Positions 1,609-35,131 of a stretch of DNA of 41,282 nt are shown piece after piece. The position numbers were made by a program, and so were the translations under genes. Position 1 is the stretch's first letter, and every line of letters begins with the position of its first letter. Source of the stretch: Actinomycetes bacterium (lineage in GTDB: Bacteria > Actinomycetota > Acidimicrobiia > Acidimicrobiales > RAAP-2); contig JAKAZI010000009.1 in NCBI GenBank assembly GCA_021809495.1, forward strand, positions 1 to 41,282, written 5' to 3'. The notes below the pieces were generated by a model. It worked only from the letters and a program-made list of their open reading frames with translations, did not search any database and was not told where the DNA came from.

Positions 1609-2372
1609 GCGGCGTCGCGTTCGCCGAACCGGAGTTGTCGCACGAAGACGACGGCCCCCGCGACGGCGAGCGCGACGGCCGCGAGTTGCACGCCGATCGA
1701 GCCGCTGTGGGACTGCTGGCCGAGCAGGAGCCGCTCGTCGAGGGCGCGCACGGCGCCCCAGACCATCATGGCGATCGCCGCGACGGCGCCGGCCACGCGC
1801 CCGATGGCGCGACGCTGCGCCCACAGCAGCACGAGCCACAGCGTGCCGTCCTCCAGTCCCTGGATGATCGGCACGGGGACGCGCTTGCCGACTTGCCCGA
1901 CGTAGTGCATGCCGAACCACTGGTGTGTCAGGTGCCCACCGCCTTGGACCATGAACTGTGGGCCGAGCAGGCGACCGAGCGCCCAGCCGGCGACGAGCGC
2001 CGGCACGACGGCGTCGGCGAAGCGGGCGAGTGAGGTATCGGGCCACCACCGCCGCCGCAGCACCAACGCGACGGGCAGCGCCGCCGCGATGCCGCCGAAG
2101 CTCGCCAGTCCACCGTGCCAGACGGCGATCCATCGTCCCGGGTGGCCGGCGTAGTAGCCCCAGTTGGTCGCGACGTGTGCGACGCGCGCGCCGATGAGGG
2201 CGGCCACGACCAACGCGCCGGCGAACGTGCCGTAAGGGCGCACGTCGAAACCAGCGCGTTCGAGGCGACGACGGCTGTAGAGGAACGCGACGTACGCGGC
2301 GATCGCGAGGCCGAAGCCGTACACGTGGAAGGTGAGCGGACCGACGTGAAACGACGTCGGGAAGGCGGACAC
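1575..2372 (-). CDS. lgt: Prolipoprotein diacylglyceryl transferase
   Basis: Multi-TM protein with VYGFGLAIAAYVAFL, HGGLASFGG, GRLLGPQFMVQGGGHLTHQWFGMHYVG, PIIQGLEDG; GTG start just after the upstream NlpC/P60 stop. Confidence 0.92.
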   Translation of the reverse strand: MSAFPTSFHVGPLTFHVYGFGLAIAAYVAFLYSRRRLERAGFDVRPYGTFAGALVVAALIGARVAHVATNWGYYAGHPGRWIAVWHGGLASFGGIAAALPVALVLRRRWWPDTSLARFADAVVPALVAGWALGRLLGPQFMVQGGGHLTHQWFGMHYVGQVGKRVPVPIIQGLEDGTLWLVLLWAQRRAIGRVAGAVAAIAMMVWGAVRALDERLLLGQQSHSGSIGVQLAAVALAVAGAVVFVRQLRFGERDAAQPIGSKRAVK

Positions 2373-2375
2373 GCC

Positions 2376-3473
2376 TTAGGCGCGCGGCCGGCCGAGACCG
2401 GCGAACCCGTAGCCGAGTCGCACCGGGGTGATGTGTACCGTGTAACCGGCTGACGGCGCCTCGATCATCTCGCCGTGGCCGATGTACATCGCGACGTGCT
2501 GATCGCCGTTGTAGCCGTAGAACAATAGGTCGCCGGGCTGGATGTCGATGAGCGGGACGCGCATCGTGTCGGCGAACTGCGCGCCCGAGTAGTGGGGTAG
2601 GAAGATGCCGGCCGCGGCGTAGGCGAGCATCACGAGACCCGAGCAGTCCACGCCGTAGCGCGACGCGCCACCCCAGACGTAGGGGACGCCGAGGAAGGAC
2701 ATCGCGGCGCGAATGGCGATGTTCGCACGCGAGTCCGGCGGCGGCGCCGGGAAGTTCGCCACGGGCTGGGCGTTGCGTAGCGTGCTCGCCGACTGGGCGG
2801 CGGCGGCCGCCTCCTGCTGGTTGATGAAGTAGGCGATCTGGCCCTTGACCTTGCTGAGCGTGTTCTGCAGGGTGGCCTGCAGGATCTTGGCCTCGTGGAA
2901 GGCCCGAGCGGCCGTGCGCGCGGCGTTGGCGGCTTTGCGATCCTCGGCGGCGAGGATGGAGCGCTCCTGGGTCAACTTGATCCGGTAACTCTTGAGGTTC
3001 GCCAGTGTCGTCGAGACGTTGCCCGCGGCGAGCTGGTTGTAGACGTCGGTGGCGCCGATGTTCGACGCGTTCTTCGAAAAGAGCGGGTTGTTGCTCGCGG
3101 CGGACCCGTTGGTCACGTAGGCGAAGATGGCGTCGGCCTGCAGCTGACTGTTGCCCTTGGCGAGGTCGCGTTGGATCTGGGCGACGATGGCCTTCGTGTT
3201 GGTGATCACGTTGGCGATGTGATGCAACGTGATCAACGACATGTCGTACTTCTGACCGAGGTAGCCGACGCGGTTGTCGATCGTCTGAATCTGGCGGTAG
3301 AGCGTCGTCGCTTCGGAGCGGGCGTTGGTCAAGTTGGAGGCACCCGCTGGAATCGGCAGCGCCGTCGTAGCCACCATCGCCGCGGCGACGACCAGTCCAC
3401 GCAGTGGTAGTCGCTTTAGCCCTCGCGTCGGCCGTAGCGTCGAATGGCGCGCCAGGCGCTCGACGTCAGTCAC
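2376..3473 (-). CDS. Secreted NlpC/P60 family peptidoglycan hydrolase with coiled-coil N-terminal region
   Basis: Signal-peptide-like N-terminus (LPLRGLVVAAAMVATTALPIPAGA), coiled-coil region, C-terminal VDCSGLVMLAY...GDQHVAMYIGHGEMIEAP catalytic Cys/His. Start GTG 3473 preferred because a TAGCGT box lies 7 nt upstream; the listed 490-aa ORF over-extends. Confidence 0.85.
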   Translation of the reverse strand: MTDVERLARHSTLRPTRGLKRLPLRGLVVAAAMVATTALPIPAGASNLTNARSEATTLYRQIQTIDNRVGYLGQKYDMSLITLHHIANVITNTKAIVAQIQRDLAKGNSQLQADAIFAYVTNGSAASNNPLFSKNASNIGATDVYNQLAAGNVSTTLANLKSYRIKLTQERSILAAEDRKAANAARTAARAFHEAKILQATLQNTLSKVKGQIAYFINQQEAAAAAQSASTLRNAQPVANFPAPPPDSRANIAIRAAMSFLGVPYVWGGASRYGVDCSGLVMLAYAAAGIFLPHYSGAQFADTMRVPLIDIQPGDLLFYGYNGDQHVAMYIGHGEMIEAPSAGYTVHITPVRLGYGFAGLGRPRA

Positions 3474-25770: not shown

Positions 25771-27186
25771 GTGGCGAACGAGGTCCAGCAGTTTGACGTT
25801 GTGATCATCGGAGGTGGCCCCGGTGGCTACGCCGCCGCGCTCTACGGAGCCGCAGCGGGGTTGAACGTCGCGCTGGTCGAGCGCGACAAGGTGGGCGGTA
25901 CGTGCCTGCACCGCGGCTGTGTCCCGGCCAAAGAGTTTCTCGAGACGGCCCACGTACGACGCACCATTGAACACGCCAGTGCGTTCGGCATCGGCACCGG
26001 TGCGGTGACGGTGGACTTCTCGGTCAGCCAGGCCCGGAAGAACGACGTCGTCGACAAACTGCACAAGGGGCTGTCCGGTCTCCTCAAGGGCCGAAAGGTC
26101 ACCATCTTCGAGGGCACGGCGCGCCTCGACGCCGACCAGGTCGTGCGCGTCCTCGATGGGGCTGACGCCGGCGTCGAGGCGAAGGGAACCAACGTCATCC
26201 TCGCGGCCGGCTCGGTTCCGCGGACCCTGCCCGGATTCGACGTGGACGGCACGATCGTGCTCACGTCCGATGAATTCTTGGACCTCGACACGCTGCCCTC
26301 GAGCGCCGCGGTTATTGGTGGTGGCGCGATCGGCTGTGAGTTCGCGTCGATGTTGTCAGACATGGGCGCATCGGTGACCGTGCTCGAGGGACTGGCGACG
26401 ATCCTCACGGGCTGTGACAGCGAGGTGGTCAACGTCGTGCAGCGCTCCTTCAAGAAGCGCGGGATCGACGTTCGCGCCGGGGTGAACGTAACGGGCCACA
26501 CGCCCACGAAGGGAGCGACGGCGGTCCACGTCGAGGGCGGCGAGGACGTTGTCGTCGAAGTCGTCGTGCTGGCGGTCGGTCGACGCCCCCGCAGCGAGGG
26601 CCTGCTCGGCGACGGGACCGGCGTGGAGATCAACGAGCGGGGTTTCGTGGTCGCCAATTCGTCGATGCGCACCGCGAACCCCAACGTCTTCGCCATCGGT
26701 GACATCGTCGCGAATACCCCGCAACTGGCGCACGTGGGCTTCGCCGAGGCGATCGTGGCGATCAAGACCATCCTCGGTGAACCGGTGGTTCCGGTCGACT
26801 ACGACCGTGTGCCGTGGGCGATCTACTCCAACCCTGAGGTGGCCTTCGTCGGGCTAACCGAGGCCGCCGCGAAGGAGCGGGGCTTCGACGTGGTGGTCAA
26901 AAAGGACCCGTTCGGCGGCAACAGTCGTGCGCAGATCATCGGCGAGACCGAAGGAGTCGTCAAGATCATCGCTGAGAAGCGCGCCGACGGCACGGCCGGC
27001 CAGATCCTCGGCGTGCACATGGCGGGTCCGTGGGTGACCGAGCAATTGGGCGCCGGGTACTACGCCGTGAACTGGGAAGCCACGGCCGAAGAGGCCGCCG
27101 CGCTCATCCAACCGCACCCGTCACTTTCGGAGACCTTCGGCGAGACGCTGTTGGCGCTAGCGGGTAGGGGGCTCCACGTTGGCTGA
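25771..27186 (+). CDS. lpdA: Dihydrolipoyl dehydrogenase (E3)
   Basis: VVIIGGGPGGYAAALYGAAAGLNVALVERDKVGGTCLHRGCVPAKEFL, C-terminal IQPHPSLSETFGETLL. Confidence 0.95.
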   Translation: MANEVQQFDVVIIGGGPGGYAAALYGAAAGLNVALVERDKVGGTCLHRGCVPAKEFLETAHVRRTIEHASAFGIGTGAVTVDFSVSQARKNDVVDKLHKGLSGLLKGRKVTIFEGTARLDADQVVRVLDGADAGVEAKGTNVILAAGSVPRTLPGFDVDGTIVLTSDEFLDLDTLPSSAAVIGGGAIGCEFASMLSDMGASVTVLEGLATILTGCDSEVVNVVQRSFKKRGIDVRAGVNVTGHTPTKGATAVHVEGGEDVVVEVVVLAVGRRPRSEGLLGDGTGVEINERGFVVANSSMRTANPNVFAIGDIVANTPQLAHVGFAEAIVAIKTILGEPVVPVDYDRVPWAIYSNPEVAFVGLTEAAAKERGFDVVVKKDPFGGNSRAQIIGETEGVVKIIAEKRADGTAGQILGVHMAGPWVTEQLGAGYYAVNWEATAEEAAALIQPHPSLSETFGETLLALAGRGLHVG

Positions 27187-28372
27187 TGTCACGCTGCCGT
27201 CACTGGGCGAATCGGTGACCGAAGGGATTATCACACGGTGGTTCAAGAAGGTCGGCGACTCCGTTGCTCGTGACGAACCGCTCTTCGAAGTCTCGACGGA
27301 CAAGGTCGACTCCGAGATGCCGTCGCCGGCGGCCGGCGTATTGACCGAAATCCTGGCCGCGGAGGGTGACACGGTCGAGACCGGATCGCGGGTGGCGGTG
27401 ATCGACGAGAACGCCGTCGCCGGTACGGTCTCGGCCACACCGGTGGCCGCACCGAGCGCCGCGGCCGCACCGAGCGCGACGGCCAGCGCACCCGCGCCGG
27501 TCAAGGGCGACACCGCAGCCGCGACGGGTGACGCGCCGGCGGCCGGCGTCGTCATTTCACCGGTCGTTCGCCGCATCCTCGCCGACGGCGGCGTTGAACC
27601 GGCCACGGTTCGCGGATCGGGACCCGGGGGAGCCATCACGCGTCGCGACGCTGAGCGGGCCGTGGCCAACGGACCGACGGACGAAGTCGTCGTGCCGCTC
27701 TCGAATGGCCTTCGTCGCATGGGCCAACACATGACGTTGTCGTCGCAAAGCACGCCGCACGGGTTCGTCGCGATCGAGGTCGACGCGTCGATCTTCGACC
27801 ACTTGGACGCGTTGGGACGGCACACCCGAGACGGCGTCGAGATCTCGGATCAGATGGTCATGGGACTAGCGGCGGTTCGGGCTCTGGGCGAGTTCGAATT
27901 CTTGAACGCGACGTTCGCGGGCGACGAATTGGTCGTTCATCGAACGGTGAACCTGGGCTTCATGCGCGAAGTGCTGCGCGACGGCATGCTCGTGCCGGTC
28001 GTGCACGCCGCCGCCGGTCTGACCCTTCGGGCCCTCGCCCGGCGCATCCACGAACTCTTCGAGCGCGTCTCGACCCGCCAGCTCACGGCCGATGACCTCA
28101 TGGGTGGAACCTTCACCATCGTCGGTCCAACCGGGCCGGACTCGCTCTTGACGAATCCGATCATCATCCAGCCCGAGGTGGCCGTGCTCTCGATGGGTGC
28201 CGTCCGCCGCGTGCCGGTGGTCTTGGACGACGGCGTATCGGTCGGCGTTGGACGCCGCGTGGTCATCGGGCTCTCCTTTGACCACCGGATCTGCGAGCCG
28301 TTCACCGCGACGGCGTACCTCGAGCGGGTGGCCGAGCTACTCGCGGGGATCGACCTGGACAGCGAGCACTAG
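27179..28372 (+). CDS. 2-oxoacid dehydrogenase E2 (dihydrolipoamide acyltransferase), one lipoyl domain
   Basis: LPSLGESVTEGIITRWFKKVGDSV...STDKVDSEMPSP lipoyl domain, Ala-rich linker, SPVVRRILADGGVEPATVRGSGPGGAITRRD PSBD, catalytic domain ending SFDHRICEPFTATAYLERV. Confidence 0.9.
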   Translation: MADVTLPSLGESVTEGIITRWFKKVGDSVARDEPLFEVSTDKVDSEMPSPAAGVLTEILAAEGDTVETGSRVAVIDENAVAGTVSATPVAAPSAAAAPSATASAPAPVKGDTAAATGDAPAAGVVISPVVRRILADGGVEPATVRGSGPGGAITRRDAERAVANGPTDEVVVPLSNGLRRMGQHMTLSSQSTPHGFVAIEVDASIFDHLDALGRHTRDGVEISDQMVMGLAAVRALGEFEFLNATFAGDELVVHRTVNLGFMREVLRDGMLVPVVHAAAGLTLRALARRIHELFERVSTRQLTADDLMGGTFTIVGPTGPDSLLTNPIIIQPEVAVLSMGAVRRVPVVLDDGVSVGVGRRVVIGLSFDHRICEPFTATAYLERVAELLAGIDLDSEH

Positions 28373-29998
28373 GTGTTGCGTCGGCGCCACGTCGGACGGG
28401 TGAGTTTCCGTGAGGCCAATGACCTCCAGCGCGCGTTGATGGAGGCGTCTAACGATTACGTCCTGGTCATGGAGCACCCGCCGACGTACACGTTGGGGAT
28501 CCGCGCCGTGCCCGAGCATTTCCTCGTCCCGCCGTCCAGTCTCGACGCGGACGTCGTCGAGGCCGATCGGGGGGGTGACGTGACCTATCACGGACCCGGA
28601 CAGGTCGTCGCGTGGGCGATCGTCACCGTCGACGATGGACCGGGGGCGGGCCGTCAACACGTGGGTCGGTTGGAGGATGCGGTGATCGCCACCGTCGTTC
28701 ATTTCGACCCCGAAGGTCGGCTCGGTCGCGTCGGACGCCTCGAGGGCTACCCCGGGGTCTGGGCCCAACTCGACGAGCGACCGGTCAAGATCGCGGCCGT
28801 GGGCGTGCGTACCGAACGCAACCGCGCCGGAAGCCGTCGAACCCTGCACGGCGTCGCACTCAACGTCGACGTCGACCTCAGGTCCTTTGACGCGATCGTG
28901 CCCTGCGGCATTCCCGACAAGCCAGTCGGCTCGATGCGCTCGCTCGGCCTTGAAGCGTCCTTCAGCGACGTCGAGGAGTACCTCGGCGCGACGCTCGACA
29001 CCGCGCTCGGCGGCCCGGGTTCGGTGGCGGCGGTCGATCGCAGCGCCGCCACCACATCGTTGGAACGACCGCTGTTACGCCGCCTGCGCAAGGCCGGCGT
29101 CGACCCCGACGCCGGCGTCGAACTACGATCACGCAAACCCTCGTGGCTGCGTATCGAGGCGCGTATGGGCACCGAGTACCAGTCGCTTCGCAAGTTGACC
29201 GACGACCTGCGCCTCGTGACCGTTTGTGAGGAGGCGGGCTGCCCCAACATCTACGAGTGCTGGGCGTCGGGCACCGCCACGTTCATGGTGAACGGTGAGC
29301 GGTGCACGAGGGCGTGCGGCTTCTGTCTCATCGATACCCGCAAACCCCTGCCCCTGGACCCGACCGAGCCCGACCGCGTCGCCGAAGCCGTGGTGCGCCT
29401 GGGCTTGAGCCACGCCGTCATCACCTGCGTCGCTCGCGACGACCTGGCCGATGGCGGCGCCGGCGCGATCGCCGCTACCGTCACCGCGATCCGTGAACGC
29501 TCCCCCCAGACCGCCGTCGAAGTGCTGATCAGTGACCTGAAGGGCGACATCGCGAGTCTGCAGCTGATCCTCGACGTGCGGCCTGACGTGGTCAACCACA
29601 ACATCGAGACGGTGGCTCGGCTCCAGCGGGCGGTTCGTCCGAGCGCGGGTTACCTACGGTCGCTGACGGTGCTCGCGCGCGCCGGCGCGCAGGGCTTGAC
29701 GACCAAGTCGGGCATCATGGTCGGTCTCGGCGAAAGCGCCGACGAGGTCGAGGCGACCCTCGCGGACCTGGCGGCGGTCGGCGTCTCGATCGCGACGATT
29801 GGCCAGTACGTGCGACCGACGGCGAGTCACGTCCCCGTGGCGCGGTGGTGGGAACCGGCCGAGTTCGAGGAACTGGCCGATCGAGGTCGGCGCCTCGGAC
29901 TGAGCCACGTGCAGTCGTCGCCGCTCACCCGATCGAGCTATCACGCGGGCGAGGCGCTCCAGCAGGCCACGCCCTTGCCGTTGCCGTCACGCCGCTAG
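28373..29998 (+). CDS. LipB-LipA fusion: lipoyl(octanoyl) transferase plus lipoyl synthase
   Basis: One 541-aa ORF. N-half: RGGDVTYHGPGQVVAW, VKIAAVGVRTER, HGVALNVDVDLRSFDAIVPCGIP. C-half: RKPSWLRIEAR, CEEAGCPNIYECW, CTRACGFCLIDTRKP, SPLTRSSYHAGE. GTG start directly follows the E2 TAG. Confidence 0.92.
   Translation: MLRRRHVGRVSFREANDLQRALMEASNDYVLVMEHPPTYTLGIRAVPEHFLVPPSSLDADVVEADRGGDVTYHGPGQVVAWAIVTVDDGPGAGRQHVGRLEDAVIATVVHFDPEGRLGRVGRLEGYPGVWAQLDERPVKIAAVGVRTERNRAGSRRTLHGVALNVDVDLRSFDAIVPCGIPDKPVGSMRSLGLEASFSDVEEYLGATLDTALGGPGSVAAVDRSAATTSLERPLLRRLRKAGVDPDAGVELRSRKPSWLRIEARMGTEYQSLRKLTDDLRLVTVCEEAGCPNIYECWASGTATFMVNGERCTRACGFCLIDTRKPLPLDPTEPDRVAEAVVRLGLSHAVITCVARDDLADGGAGAIAATVTAIRERSPQTAVEVLISDLKGDIASLQLILDVRPDVVNHNIETVARLQRAVRPSAGYLRSLTVLARAGAQGLTTKSGIMVGLGESADEVEATLADLAAVGVSIATIGQYVRPTASHVPVARWWEPAEFEELADRGRRLGLSHVQSSPLTRSSYHAGEALQQATPLPLPSRR

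Positions 29999-31630: not shown

Positions 31631-35131
<3,501 letters not shown>

Follow-up and report, generated by a model that had tools for sequence, protein, structure and literature searches.

A gene in which an octanoyltransferase (LipB) and a lipoyl synthase (LipA) are joined in one open reading frame is a class-wide trait of the Acidimicrobiia and not an oddity of one genome. The gene lies in a 41,282-nucleotide stretch of an Acidimicrobiales genome (the window), a draft of 1.54 Mb in 123 contigs that is 89% complete. It very probably encodes a bifunctional enzyme of de novo lipoylation that was most likely fused once, has been kept in the class and usually sits in an operon of the order E3-E2-lipBA. 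A single frame with a GTG start, a TAG stop and 541 codons, predicted to encode 541 amino acids, holds both domains, and the locus is laid out as follows.

25771..27186, plus strand: dihydrolipoyl dehydrogenase E3 (TIGR01350, 454.2 bits, cut-off 408.8), overlapping the start of the E2 gene
27179..28372, plus strand: dihydrolipoamide acyltransferase E2 (PF00364, PF02817, PF00198)
28373..29998, plus strand: fused LipB-LipA gene, an uninterrupted frame with both domains above curated cut-offs
28373..29002, plus strand: LipB octanoyltransferase domain, residues about 1-210, with the dyad K139/C178 (TIGR00214, PF21948; Foldseek match 1w66)
29003..29125, plus strand: junction, residues about 211-251 (alignment, model, in-frame coding constraint, unconserved start codons)
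29126..29962, plus strand: LipA lipoyl synthase (radical SAM) domain, residues about 252-530 (TIGR00510, NF004019, PF04055, PF16881; Foldseek match 5exk)

Both halves were recognised by curated protein family models. The LipB equivalog model TIGR00214 matched residues 26-190 with 113.4 bits (cut-off 83.55) and the Pfam family LplA-B_cat matched residues 17-206 with 90.4 bits; against the narrower LipB model NF010925 the score of 138.3 stayed below the cut-off of 155. For the LipA half, the equivalog model TIGR00510 scored 329.7 bits (cut-off 310.25) over residues 251 to about 532 and NF004019 scored 377.3 bits (cut-off 203) over residues 251-532, with further matches to Pfam LIAS_N and Radical_SAM. 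In an alignment of 53 fusions the residues R66-G67-G68, T71, H73, K139 and C178 of LipB were invariant, as were the auxiliary-cluster cysteines C285/C290/C296 (CX4CX5C), the SAM-cluster cysteines C311/C315/C318 (CX3CX2C) and R520-S521-S522 of the C-terminal RSSYHA in LipA. Since all catalytic residues are invariant, both halves look intact as predicted enzymes. Furthermore, comparison with solved structures returned lipoyl synthases and LipBs, and the top Foldseek matches of each kind to the predicted model were LipA (5exk) and LipB (1w66) of M. tuberculosis. The original prediction of a complete LipB and a complete LipA in one frame of 541 residues was thus borne out, with its coordinates exact, curated cut-offs passed and catalytic residues kept.

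The distribution of the fusion was examined in the genus, the class and the phylum. Named relatives in the group of the window genome are metagenome assemblies assigned to Acidimicrobiaceae, Acidimicrobiales and Acidimicrobiia. A long fused frame was present in 33 of 36 congeners, with one genome lacking a match and two having the locus split between contigs, and 115 of the 119 genomes of the class sample gave a match. Of 158 classified loci with a match to LipB or LipA, 124 were fused (a few having been fetched twice), and the 34 unfused loci consisted of separate pairs of the Actinomycetes type, truncations at contig edges, fetches of a single domain and three individual cases (L031, L155 and L156). 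Nearly all Acidimicrobiia with an intact locus carry the fusion, the exceptions being two with separate genes and one with a broken frame, and it occurs in the genus, across the Acidimicrobiales and in the rest of the class, including the marine Ca. Actinomarina. For most of the marine f33 genomes the fusion was called from the length of the open frame, and several of these loci were opened and confirmed. An apparent internal stop in six genomes was dismissed, as the tblastn match had overrun the end of LipA and the loci are fused.

The three individual cases differ in kind. The broken frame (L031) lies on a contig at about 1.25x coverage. Locus L155, on a 5-kb contig, encodes LipB and LipA as a separate, divergent pair; the fusion is also present in its genome, and the pair represents either a second system or a contaminant. 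Locus L156 (contig C15 of genome G149, 2018..2770, minus strand) is a stand-alone LipB with a sequence falling among the fused LipBs; no LipA was found in that genome, which is 85% complete, and a secondary loss of the LipA half is possible. Separately, a record titled Bifidobacterium breve (CAMBEL010000003.1) contains a fusion of the Acidimicrobiia type, from which the assembly looks mislabelled or mixed.

A stop or frameshift between the domains, revealed by resequencing, had been named as a refutation; the fusion would then be an artefact of two normal genes whose separation was lost in sequencing or assembly. The fragmented state of the window genome and the broken frame in L031 would fit such an error, but the same open frame recurs in the 124 fetched loci, which derive from many independent assemblies and include single-contig genomes. 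With the fusion conserved in a hundred or so genomes, if not more, and kept in frame almost throughout the Acidimicrobiia where the locus is intact, we regard an assembly artefact as extremely improbable.

Outside the class, the fusion was absent from all of the 20 most suspicious loci opened in a phylum-wide sample of other Actinomycetota classes, and long open frames that had suggested fusions there were rejected as chance frames in GC-rich DNA. A plasmid search likewise returned no fusion, and the annotated matches among the records listed name lipA and lipB separately. Actinomycetes have the two genes side by side but separate: in Dietzia, Rhodococcus, Nocardiopsis and Streptomyces a distinct lipA, carrying an N-terminal tail of its own (APEGRKLLR...ERKPxW), starts shortly after lipB. 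The adjacent genes of Dietzia, Rhodococcus and Streptomyces, a set that had been selected for being in frame, resemble the fusion in gene pair and order and often have a short gap, but differ from it by a stop codon between the genes and a LipA with its own start. These pairs look like the precursor state. Separate lipB/lipA loci had seemed enriched in neighbours that share a frame, but the loci had been ranked by a single tblastn stretch, and the enrichment was discarded as an effect of that selection.

Phylogenies were constructed for each half. Fused sequences formed one side of a branch in the LipA tree (95/85), and in a reduced LipB set from which long-branch rows had been removed the fused sequences and one lone LipB of the class formed one side of a branch (100/100). 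In a fuller LipB tree that included the long branches, the fused rows were not set apart from the others by a single branch. The LipA tree and the reduced LipB set are consistent with one gain of the fusion. Adjacent lipB and lipA genes would have been joined once, most likely on the stem of the Acidimicrobiia, by loss of the intervening stop, and the fusion would have been retained since, usually inside the E3-E2-lipBA operon.

The junction between the domains is variable. In the window, about 40 residues lie between the LipB core and the start of the LipA core at RKPSW, part of them at the position taken by the native N-terminal tail in actinobacterial LipA proteins that stand alone. Among fusions the distance from the PCG of LipB to the KPxW of LipA ranges from 63 to 161 residues, and the junction sequence is poorly conserved in the 53 aligned fusions. 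An element resembling LL.RL..AGVD, common to many fusions, occurs just before the LipA core (29057..29119, residues 229-249, ERPLLRRLRKAGVDPDAG...), part of which, residues 233-240, the AlphaFold2 model turns into a helix.

The variability of the junction raises the question of one polypeptide or two, since LipA could also, or only, be produced from an internal start or by proteolysis, leaving the cell with two separate enzymes. Potential starts are available: in the window, a GTG at 29024 and a TTG at 29060 lie in frame ahead of the LipA core, and most of 117 fusions have some in-frame start codon in the 45 codons before that core, preceded in 38 fusions by a purine-rich stretch. Against this, the positions of such codons are not conserved even within the genus, and in 11 of the 117 fusions no ATG, GTG or TTG occurs in the 45 codons preceding the KPxW of LipA. 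Furthermore, among 13 ungapped relatives 54% of the differences in the linker (residues 206-251) fall at the third codon position, compared with 60% in LipB and 68% in LipA, and amino acid identity of the linker is 66%. This third-position bias and identity indicate that the linker is translated and constrained, though less so than the domains. A cell working with two separate enzymes is therefore very unlikely, and the survey of start codons leaves little room for the two proteins that had been named as a possible refutation. By sequence, a separate LipA from internal initiation appears unlikely as a general feature, and leaky internal initiation may occur in some species. A single LipB-LipA polypeptide is the preferred product.

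The genomic neighbourhood is conserved along with the fusion. The E2 of the window comprises one lipoyl domain, an E3-binding domain and a catalytic domain, and its stop codon abuts the GTG of the fusion in the same frame; across the genus, the E2 stop abuts or overlaps the start of the fusion. Where the contig left room, E2 was found within 400 bases upstream in 111 of 119 fused loci and an E3 match was found upstream in 98 of 98, in agreement with the earlier claim that the fusion is encoded directly after E3 and E2. Eight loci have E3 upstream with no recognised E2 between. A candidate triple fusion of E2, LipB and LipA in one further genome (a frame of 938 residues, 397 + 541) was rejected, as the E2 there is read in a different frame and ends at a stop of its own. 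Downstream, a 1166-residue open reading frame (31631..35131, minus strand) resembles by eye the cobalamin-dependent methionine synthase MetH.

Only one gene of the LplA/LipB family was found in the 89%-complete assembly of the window genome, which encodes at least three lipoyl proteins: the adjacent E2, a PDH-type E2 beside E1 beta (contig C92) and GcvH (contig C4). With one LipB and further lipoyl proteins in the genome, the adjacent E2 is probably not the enzyme's only substrate, and if the fusion is the sole system it must modify several. The adjacent E2 had been named as the likely substrate; its adjacency is conserved, and as a statement of substrate range the claim was too narrow. The probable substrate range of the fusion is every lipoyl protein of the cell (the adjacent E2, the PDH-type E2 and GcvH).

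The chemistry of both halves is taken from knowledge of the families, in which the lipoyl lysine receives octanoate from the acyl carrier protein by the action of LipB (PMC9307952), and sulfur insertion by LipA proceeds first at C6 and then at C8 (PMC12246082). By analogy, the LipB half would use its Cys178/Lys139 dyad to move octanoate from the acyl carrier protein onto the lysine of a lipoyl domain. The LipA half, a radical-SAM enzyme with two predicted [4Fe-4S] clusters, would then introduce two sulfurs at C6 and C8, with the auxiliary cluster as the sulfur source.

An AlphaFold2 model built from the 53-row alignment had a mean pLDDT of 90.4 and a pTM of 0.91, with a short loose segment of low confidence at residues 225-228 ahead of the helix noted above. 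For two large domains, a pTM of this size indicates confident relative placement, and the model suggests that the two domains adopt a defined arrangement. A control model of a read-through Dietzia lipB-lipA pair (21 rows) gave a pLDDT of 65.4 and a pTM of 0.49, with the domains themselves poor, making the contrast uninterpretable.

The benefit of the fusion is probably a fixed 1:1 dosage and the proximity of both steps, with the domains in a defined arrangement. A more elaborate reading is channelling, whereby a lipoyl domain would be octanoylated and thiolated without leaving, the geometry of the active sites letting one domain swing between them. The confident domain placement, the persistence of the fusion across the entire class and the conserved E2 gene next door would all suit it, but the variable length and sequence of the junction fit a tether better than a precise channel and the genome encodes several lipoyl substrates, so that we hold this reading to be rather doubtful. 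That the fusion is a class-wide rigid lipoyl assembly enzyme, performing octanoylation and sulfur insertion without release as a case of natural channelling, is likewise unlikely. Fixed dosage and proximity remain the favoured explanation. A natural fusion kept throughout a class offers a ready-made system for testing whether the octanoylated domain is handed over from LipB to LipA. It is also a candidate single-gene lipoylation tool for engineered hosts, and its presence cleanly marks a genome as Acidimicrobiia.

A full-text literature search returned no published description of a LipB-LipA fusion, and automated annotations of it may exist; the same search found no paper mentioning both Acidimicrobiia and lipoate. 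Fusions of LplA and LplB are discussed in a recent survey of lipoate assembly (PLoS Biol 2023, PMC10332631), the available passages of which make no mention of a LipB-LipA fusion. With LipB (TIGR00214, M. tuberculosis 1w66) the fusion shares the whole domain, the RGGDVTYHGPGQ motif, the Cys/Lys dyad and the fold, whereas characterised LipBs are stand-alone and the domain is fused to LipA here. Stand-alone LipB and LipA are both textbook enzymes. The fusion shares both cluster motifs and the RSSYHA tail with LipA (TIGR00510, M. tuberculosis 5exk, human LIAS 8v0j) and is about 49% identical to M. tuberculosis LipA over the structural alignment, but where stand-alone LipA has its native N-terminal tail, the fusion has the junction with LipB, which has displaced or taken up that tail. 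Membership in NF053790 (LplA_LipA_fuse, bifunctional lipoate--protein ligase/lipoyl synthase) was rejected, the fusion scoring 339.9 against a cut-off of 800 with only residues 251-527 of the LipA half matching. Both architectures place an attachment enzyme ahead of LipA in one chain; the attachment half of NF053790 is an LplA-type ligase, unlike the LipB half here. The parts and reactions of the fusion are already known, and its joined architecture and class-wide conservation are new.
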